A DNA stretch of 46,655 bases from Arcobacteraceae bacterium. GTDB lineage: Bacteria > Campylobacterota > Campylobacteria > Campylobacterales > Arcobacteraceae. This document shows positions 27,555 to 29,187 of the stretch, piece after piece; position 1 is the stretch's first letter; every line of letters begins with the position of its first letter. Location of the stretch: the NCBI GenBank assembly GCA_029934475.1, contig JAOZMC010000005.1, positions 1 through 46,655 of the forward strand. The letters run 5' to 3'. The notes beneath the pieces are model-generated. The model ran no database searches. It had not been told where the DNA came from and worked only from the letters and a program-made list of their open reading frames with translations. Position numbers and translations under genes: made by a program.

Positions 27555-28130
27555 CTACAATATTTTTTGTATATTTTTTGTAATATCTTTTATGTCTGGG
27601 TTATTGAAAAAATCTTTTGTAGTTGTGATGATTTGTCCATTTTCGTAGCTGCTTTTTTTTGCGTAGTCTTTTGCAATATCTACTGGCACTTCCAAAGCTT
27701 TCAAAAGTTTTCCGTCATGGTTGAATATAACCACCACTAGATAATCAAACTTCCATGACCTTATCTTACCAAGGCTAGTAGCTGATAGTTTGTCTACTTT
27801 TCTTGCTTTGATTTGATATAGAGTCTCTTTGTTGTTTTTAGTTACTTTCATATCTGCACTTTTAAACGATGTTGGCAAAAGCTTACCACCATAAGATTTG
27901 GAAACTACATATTCTGAATACTCCGATAAAATATTTCTTGACCTGCCAAGCTCTTTGTGCAATTTGTTGCCTGCTTGATTGTAACTTAACCAAAGTTTAT
28001 TGATATGGTTTGTTTTGGCAGTTTCATCTTTGCTACGGCTATCGTTTACACTACTTGCATCTATTTGTGTGGCAAATACCGCCCACAACATTATCGCTGA
28101 CAAGAGCGAACCAAATTTTACAATTTTCAT
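27555..28130 (-). CDS. PD-(D/E)XK-like (DUF6998-type) nuclease domain protein with signal peptide
   Basis: A 191-residue protein. Residues 1-26 look like a Sec signal peptide (Lys, then a hydrophobic FGSLLSAIMLWAVF core, then IDAS). The rest resembles DUF6998-type restriction-enzyme-fold domains: LGRSRNILSEYSEY near 61-74, Asp93, then Gln106-Ile-Lys108 (YQIKARK), and IRSWKFDYLVVVIF near 123. This set fits an E...D...QxK nuclease active site. An AAAAAGGA site six bases before the ATG supports translation from 28130, so the signal peptide appears genuine. It lies beside a DNA methyltransferase gene with its own promoter. A periplasmic or secreted nuclease is my inference; the family call is from memory. 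Confidence 0.65.
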   Translation of the reverse strand: MKIVKFGSLLSAIMLWAVFATQIDASSVNDSRSKDETAKTNHINKLWLSYNQAGNKLHKELGRSRNILSEYSEYVVSKSYGGKLLPTSFKSADMKVTKNNKETLYQIKARKVDKLSATSLGKIRSWKFDYLVVVIFNHDGKLLKALEVPVDIAKDYAKKSSYENGQIITTTKDFFNNPDIKDITKNIQKIL

Positions 28131-28185
28131 ATTTTTCCTTTTTGTTAGATATTTTATATAAATACCTAATCTTTTTTTGTGCTGG

Positions 28186-28207
28186 ATTTTATCATATTAA
28201 ATTTAAA
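28186..28207 (-). promoter_or_regulatory. Promoter of the exported nuclease-like gene
   Basis: Minus strand TTTAAA-type element, spacer of seven to eight bases, then TGATAAAAT. It lies in the 106-base gap after the methyltransferase gene, so the nuclease-like gene can be expressed separately, with a leader of about 50 bases. Confidence 0.55.
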
Positions 28208-28236
28208 CTAACTTTGCTTTGTATAATTTGGACAAT

Positions 28237-29187
28237 TTATGATGAAAAATATACCTCGTTTATAACATCTCTGGCAAGTTTATAATCCAACCTTCGGCGA
28301 TATTTGTTGTCTGCTCGCATCCCTTTAAATGGTGTCAAAAATATATCACCTGTGCTTTCTCGTAGAGACGAGATAGTGTGGTTGAGCTGAACTATAAGTT
28401 TGTTTATATCTGCATCTATAGATATTCTTGTGATAGACCTAGAGCTGTGGCTCACTTTGTTTGTATCTATCAAGTCGCCGTCACAAAACTTGATAGATGG
28501 GGTTTTTGTGTTGTCTATAGCTATCAAGCCTAGCTTGCCTTGTTTGTCGTTAAATCTCATATTGGTTTTTTTTGTTGGGTTTGGTAGCTTATTTTTCAGA
28601 TCTTTCAATAAGCCCAAATATTTTTGATTGTCATAAACTTTTGTCGGTGTTGGGTTTTTGCTAAACAAAGCCAGACATACAGGGTGGTCTGTGTCATCAA
28701 ACATCTTTGTGTTCAATAAAATATAAGCAGACAATCTACTCAAAAATATATTTGCATTTATAAAAGAAGCCGGTATTATCGCTGCTACATAGTCGCAGTT
28801 ATCCAGACATTTCTCTAAGCTAAATTTATACATATCATCATATGTAGTAGCGGGATAATCTATATTTCGTCTTGAGGCAGAGTTTTGGGCTAGGTATGGT
28901 GGATTTGTAACACAAACTTTGTAGCCTGTAGGAAAATCTTTTAAAGTGTCTTGTCTTTGTATATTTTTGTTTTGTGGTTCTATATCAAATGATTTGAAAC
29001 TATTGCACAGTGATAAATTTTGCAACATTGTGATAAGATTGTTGGACCCTGCAAATGGTTCTAGTATCGTAGTGTTTGTGATATTACACTCACGACACCA
29101 CTCATCAAATGCTTGATTTTCAAAAGGATTATAAGATGTAAAGTATTGACCGTTTGCTCTTTTGTCATGATTGAATAGATTTACCAC
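28237..29187 (-). CDS. N6-adenine DNA methyltransferase, TaqI/Eco57I-like
   Basis: A 316-residue DNA methyltransferase with the gamma-class motif order: motif X GQYFT at 13-17, motif I ILEPFAGSNN at 41-50, acidic SFDIEP near 66-71, and catalytic NPPY at 95-98. It is short, so the C-terminal target-recognition region is small (about residues 190-316). It starts with GTG with GAAGG upstream. Next to a nuclease-fold gene it could form a type II restriction-modification pair, but that partner carries a signal peptide. As an alternative it may be an orphan regulatory methylase. The pair interrupts the core genes between pyrH and the rhomboid-lon string. Confidence 0.82.
   Translation of the reverse strand: MVNLFNHDKRANGQYFTSYNPFENQAFDEWCRECNITNTTILEPFAGSNNLITMLQNLSLCNSFKSFDIEPQNKNIQRQDTLKDFPTGYKVCVTNPPYLAQNSASRRNIDYPATTYDDMYKFSLEKCLDNCDYVAAIIPASFINANIFLSRLSAYILLNTKMFDDTDHPVCLALFSKNPTPTKVYDNQKYLGLLKDLKNKLPNPTKKTNMRFNDKQGKLGLIAIDNTKTPSIKFCDGDLIDTNKVSHSSRSITRISIDADINKLIVQLNHTISSLRESTGDIFLTPFKGMRADNKYRRRLDYKLARDVINEVYFSS

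Follow-up and report, generated by a model that had tools for sequence, protein, structure and literature searches.

Does a restriction-type nuclease that carries an export signal form one system with the DNA methyltransferase encoded beside it, or does it act on its own, outside the cytoplasm? This question is raised by two adjacent genes in a stretch of 46,655 nucleotides (the whole of the DNA analysed, hereafter the window), which is contig C52 of an Arcobacteraceae genome of 1.52 Mb that is 97% complete. In the direction of transcription, the genes on the minus strand encode a Lon-like protease, a rhomboid protease, the methyltransferase, a 191-residue nuclease, PyrH, and a DnaB-like protein; the names Lon, PyrH, and DnaB reflect sequence appearance, and PyrH also has an amino acid kinase match in Pfam. 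The nuclease gene (27555..28130) and the methyltransferase gene (28237..29187) lie on the same strand (minus), 106 bp apart, and we recognised no further defence gene next to the nuclease in the window. Taken as a whole, we lean, with modest confidence, towards the explanation that the nuclease is an endonuclease of BisI descent that is exported and that its methyltransferase neighbour is an orphan.

The BisI family consists of stand-alone, 5-methylcytosine (5mC)-dependent nucleases; its members NhoI and Eco15I cut GCNGC when the cytosines are 5-methylated, and the catalytic Glu50, Asp, and QxK residues of NhoI are required for cleavage (PMC11347163). When the window nuclease was compared with the PDB sequences using phmmer, it matched NhoI (1.6e-11) and Eco15I (2.2e-11), and the PADLOC model mREase_II, which describes methyl-directed restriction enzymes, matched it at 7e-24. 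A Pfam scan returned DUF6998 just below the cut-off, one chance match, and nothing else. The AlphaFold2 model of the protein, built from a two-row alignment and with a pLDDT of 66–91 (ten-residue blocks) over residues 71–190 and below 50 for residues 1–49, matches NhoI with an E-value of 3e-12 and a TM-score of 0.77 by target length, and its best PDB matches are all NhoI or Eco15I structures (TM 0.72–0.79 to NhoI by target length). The preliminary description of this DNA had read an E...D...QxK nuclease from the letters and had named a structural match to PD-(D/E)XK enzymes as a test; both the residues and the fold were found. The predicted catalytic residues are Glu73 (27912..27914, minus strand), Asp93 at the PD position, which is AD here (27852..27854, minus), and Gln106-Ile-Lys108 at the (D/E)XK position (27807..27815, minus), which align with Glu50, Asp, and QVK/QIK of NhoI and Eco15I (PMC11347163). 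These catalytic residues (E73, D93, Q106, and K108), together with N66, R110, and R124, are invariant in the alignment of the first family set. N66 corresponds to Asn42 of NhoI, R110 to Arg84, and R124 to Arg101; in other words, the arginines of both the external (Arg84) and the internal (Arg101) methyl pockets are present.

By sequence, then, the window nuclease is a BisI homologue with a complete PD-(D/E)XK active site, as distinct from a member of the family by activity. It shares with the family (Pfam DUF6998, PADLOC mREase_II) the fold, the catalytic E/D/QxK residues, the equivalents of Arg84, Arg101, and Asn42, the helix preceding the core, and the habit of being a stand-alone gene at variable loci, whereas it differs in its export signal, in a Tyr-Glu pair at the motif for internal 5mC, and in a Gly at the equivalent of Ser98. 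Its nearest relative, with 51% identity, is found in another genome of the same genus, G039; between the two genes, the first, second, and third codon positions differ at 55, 28, and 70 sites over 145 codons, and the low count at the second position is as expected for genes under constraint.

The N-terminus of the window nuclease, MKIVKFGSLLSAIMLWAVFATQIDASS, was predicted to be a Sec-type signal peptide (residues 1–25; 28056..28130, minus strand), with MKIVK followed by a hydrophobic core at about residues 8–23 and a possible cleavage site IDA|SS after A25. This assignment is based on rules and sequence composition rather than on a trained predictor: the basic n-region, the hydrophobic core, and the small residue at –1 agree with a Sec signal, and the residue at –3 would be Ile. 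Elsewhere in the window, comparable N-terminal hydrophobicity behind basic residues is seen only in predicted proteins that look membrane-bound or exported, including signal-peptidase-like, lipoprotein, and penicillin-binding-protein-like ones (names given by sequence appearance, not by a family search). The convincing signal peptide and the good ribosome-binding site of the preliminary description are thus both upheld, the latter as AAGGA, 5 nt before the ATG (28136..28140, minus). In-frame starts (ATG/GTG/TTG) occur at codons 1, 10, 14, and 15 and next at codon 57. Because there is none between codons 15 and 57, a signal-free start never yields a protein that keeps the helix alpha0, and any product with this helix bears at least some of the hydrophobic stretch.

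The G039 homologue begins with MKIKKFSISCLITITLLMVTGCASK, a lipoprotein-type signal with the lipobox LMVTGC|A, and start codons are absent between codons 18 and 120. Its gene sits between genes for a Xer-type recombinase and an ABC-F-like protein, away from the methyltransferase gene. Directly upstream of it is a degenerate minisatellite with 7/14/21-bp periods (TGAGTGG/TAAGTTT) and a run of N (L003:1057-1302, G039:C13). Eleven further homologues, including one from the same order, were examined and carry no comparable export signal. Plasmid-borne relatives without a comparable hydrophobic N-terminus come from Vibrio, E. coli, Pantoea, Rhizobium, Sinorhizobium (a homologue whose start is not annotated), Phaeobacter, Burkholderia, Curtobacterium, and Frigoribacterium, and the relative in G502, a genome of another family in the same order, has no export signal either. 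Given signals in the window and G039 proteins and none in these 11, export looks real and confined to one uncultured Arcobacteraceae genus. The exported members known are two, both from metagenome-assembled genomes of this genus and with differing signal types.

That difference in signal type between the two N-termini might favour an ordinary cytosolic BisI-type defence enzyme, the N-terminus either anchoring a nuclease that stays inside or being an artefact of assembly or start-site choice, and work on the characterised BisI enzymes has treated them as intracellular restriction enzymes (PMC11347163, PMC8281217). However, export signals occur in two separate genomes, the basic residues ahead of the hydrophobic core favour an N-in, C-out orientation, the ribosome-binding site lies directly before the ATG, and codons 15 to 57 offer no other start. 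We consider a cytosolic enzyme unlikely, and we are highly confident of the nuclease identity together with its export signal. The combination had been described as not standard, and a restriction-type nuclease with an export signal was indeed not found in the open-access literature, where BisI or type IV enzymes that are exported did not turn up either (subscription papers were outside the scope).

The nuclease gene occurs in 2 of the 104 genomes of the family, both of this genus, and in samples of about 400 genomes each from the phylum, the order, and the class, comparable scores were obtained only for G000 and G502; the relatives in G300 and G338 are weaker and of a different kind. Exported relatives may also exist in other phyla. 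Pfam DUF6998 was tried as a search model and set aside as too weak, since it misses the window protein genome-wide, and its six matches in the phylum are to other proteins, none of which has an export signal. Phages gave no match, and viral contigs gave a single Eco15I-like protein only. Elsewhere, a BisI-like gene lies in an apparent integron cassette array (DUF3265, repeated VCR-like sequence) on the Vibrio alginolyticus plasmid NZ_CP046774.1 (L010:4901-5531), and another adjoins a gene for the Shedu immune nuclease on the conjugative plasmid p7 of Rhizobium sp. NLR16a (L036). The cytosolic relative in G502 (L044:1468-2349, G502:C5) has one internal TAA and an additional C-terminal stretch.

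NhoI contacts the internal methyl groups via His139-Val140, and the family motif at this position is (H/R)(V/I/T/M) (PMC11347163). In the alignment, this motif is missing from the window nuclease, where Tyr162-Glu163 (YE; 27642..27647, minus strand) replaces it. The same position holds YK in G039, YQ in G502, and HQ in the Vibrio cassette protein; HV or HT is found in the other homologues examined. The window, G039, G502, and Vibrio proteins form one group with support of 92/92, the order within the four not being settled by the tree, and the larger group that encloses them also takes in a small E. coli plasmid protein (support 98/97). Because the motif is missing in the exported proteins and in their two nearest cytosolic relatives, cleavage specificity may have been altered in all four. 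Its loss is common to the cytosolic Vibrio (HQ) and G502 (YQ) proteins and so is not a consequence of export; the loss probably preceded export or happened independently of it. The idea that export itself caused the loss of methyl-sensing was considered and is weakened by these same relatives.

The methyltransferase (316 aa) matches Pfam Eco57I, contains the motifs GQYFT, FAGSNN, and NPPY named in the preliminary description, and is of the N6-adenine type. The same description took the two neighbours for a type II restriction-modification pair, in which the methyltransferase would mark self DNA and the nuclease would cut unmarked DNA outside the cell, and their adjacency on one strand is in keeping with such a system. 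Comparison with related genomes tells otherwise. The METHYLTRANSFERASE orthologues in G039 (97% identity) and G037 (90%) have the same upstream neighbours. In G037, which has no BisI homologue, the stop of the methyltransferase gene overlaps by 1 nt the start of a gene for a different, 252-residue Tsp45I-like endonuclease (L008:5948-6706; G037:C6:47755-48510), which scores an E-value of 1.7e-5 against Pfam Tsp45I, 0.1 bits below the cut-off. This gene has disappeared from the window genome or been replaced there. In G039, the methyltransferase and the nuclease are on different contigs, so the pairing is absent from both genomes. The Tsp45I-like endonuclease is absent in G000, G038, and G039 at E 0.01 (the G039 contig ends at the methyltransferase), and no significant remnant of it was detected in the window by tblastn (best E 0.18). 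The window and G037 are similar at the DNA level up to the end of the methyltransferase gene and not beyond it, and the BisI-like gene is at a rearranged junction before pyrH, whose neighbours differ in G037 and G038. More distant methyltransferase relatives were seen in Brachyspira and on a Magnetospirillum plasmid, the one in Brachyspira catarrhinii being split into two overlapping frames (L009:1551-2497).

The G037 system thus has the same methyltransferase in the same gene neighbourhood, whereas its own endonuclease has no relation to the window nuclease and does not occur in the window genome; with this endonuclease beside the orthologue and gone here, the window methyltransferase is probably an orphan of a Tsp45I-like restriction-modification system, and we do not count it as part of the nuclease system. 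Moreover, since the nuclease family is stand-alone and cuts 5mC-modified DNA (PMC11347163), a methyltransferase of the m6A type, as its NPPY motif indicates, would not be its protecting partner. We therefore reject the pairing, and a single exported self-marking system is very improbable. Separate promoters, which had been proposed for the two genes, are not borne out: sigma-70-like matches number 10, against 9.7 expected by chance.

From these features, we infer how an exported endonuclease with an orphan neighbour would work: its actual export, its catalysis outside the cytoplasm, its target DNA, and its role. The signal peptide would direct the nuclease unfolded through Sec, so that the cell's own chromosome would be unexposed to the folded enzyme and protective methylation would be unneeded; the compartment would replace methylation as self-protection, with the membrane shielding the chromosome. 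In the periplasm, the nuclease would fold and dimerise, soluble in the window genome and lipid-anchored in the G039 relative, and would cut double-stranded DNA, either extracellular or coming into the cell from phages or by transformation. The neighbouring methyltransferase would be a leftover of the Tsp45I-like system whose endonuclease is still in G037.

A ComEC-family protein is encoded in the window genome, which makes DNA uptake plausible. The Dns-type DNases of Campylobacter are a family of DNA/RNA non-specific endonucleases. Those encoded by phage dns genes go with a lack of natural transformation, and extracellular DNase activity has been demonstrated for dns (PMC10893306). The dns/dns2/dns3 enzymes offer a functional parallel, as nucleases of variable elements in the same phylum with a proposed barrier function against foreign DNA (PMC10893306), whereas they are prophage-borne and experimentally tested, and the Pfam scan found no sequence relation between them and the window nuclease; what they share may be a role, not descent. 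A barrier to incoming DNA is the most likely role of the window nuclease, if somewhat short of an even chance. It may count against this role that incoming DNA is protected or passes through the periplasm too quickly. The main functional rival is that the exported nuclease serves mainly the turnover of nutrient or biofilm DNA; a periplasmic nuclease could serve scavenging, and in Campylobacter jejuni, biofilms are affected by extracellular DNases (PMC4372405). Against turnover, a site-specific dimeric enzyme of the restriction type would be ill suited to full degradation, and the BisI family is found on plasmids and in cassettes, with one member beside a Shedu defence gene; we regard turnover as rather unlikely. 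More tentative than the barrier role itself is the wider proposal that a restriction lineage left the cytoplasm, that export makes a protecting methylase, or dependence on modification, unnecessary, and that the enzyme acts outside the cytoplasm as a first line of defence against phage or transforming DNA.

What is unusual at this locus, and is upheld, is the exported restriction-type nuclease; the partnership with the methyltransferase is not. The BisI family itself is already known and normally intracellular, and the novel part is the export signal on a nuclease of this type. Restriction enzymes settle self and non-self through methylation or through a required foreign modification. Export would settle it by compartment, with the genome inside and the enzyme outside. 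If active, the protein would be a nuclease of the restriction type at work in the periplasm, and it would allow direct tests of what a BisI-type enzyme does with a diverged methyl-sensing motif when its own genome is out of reach.
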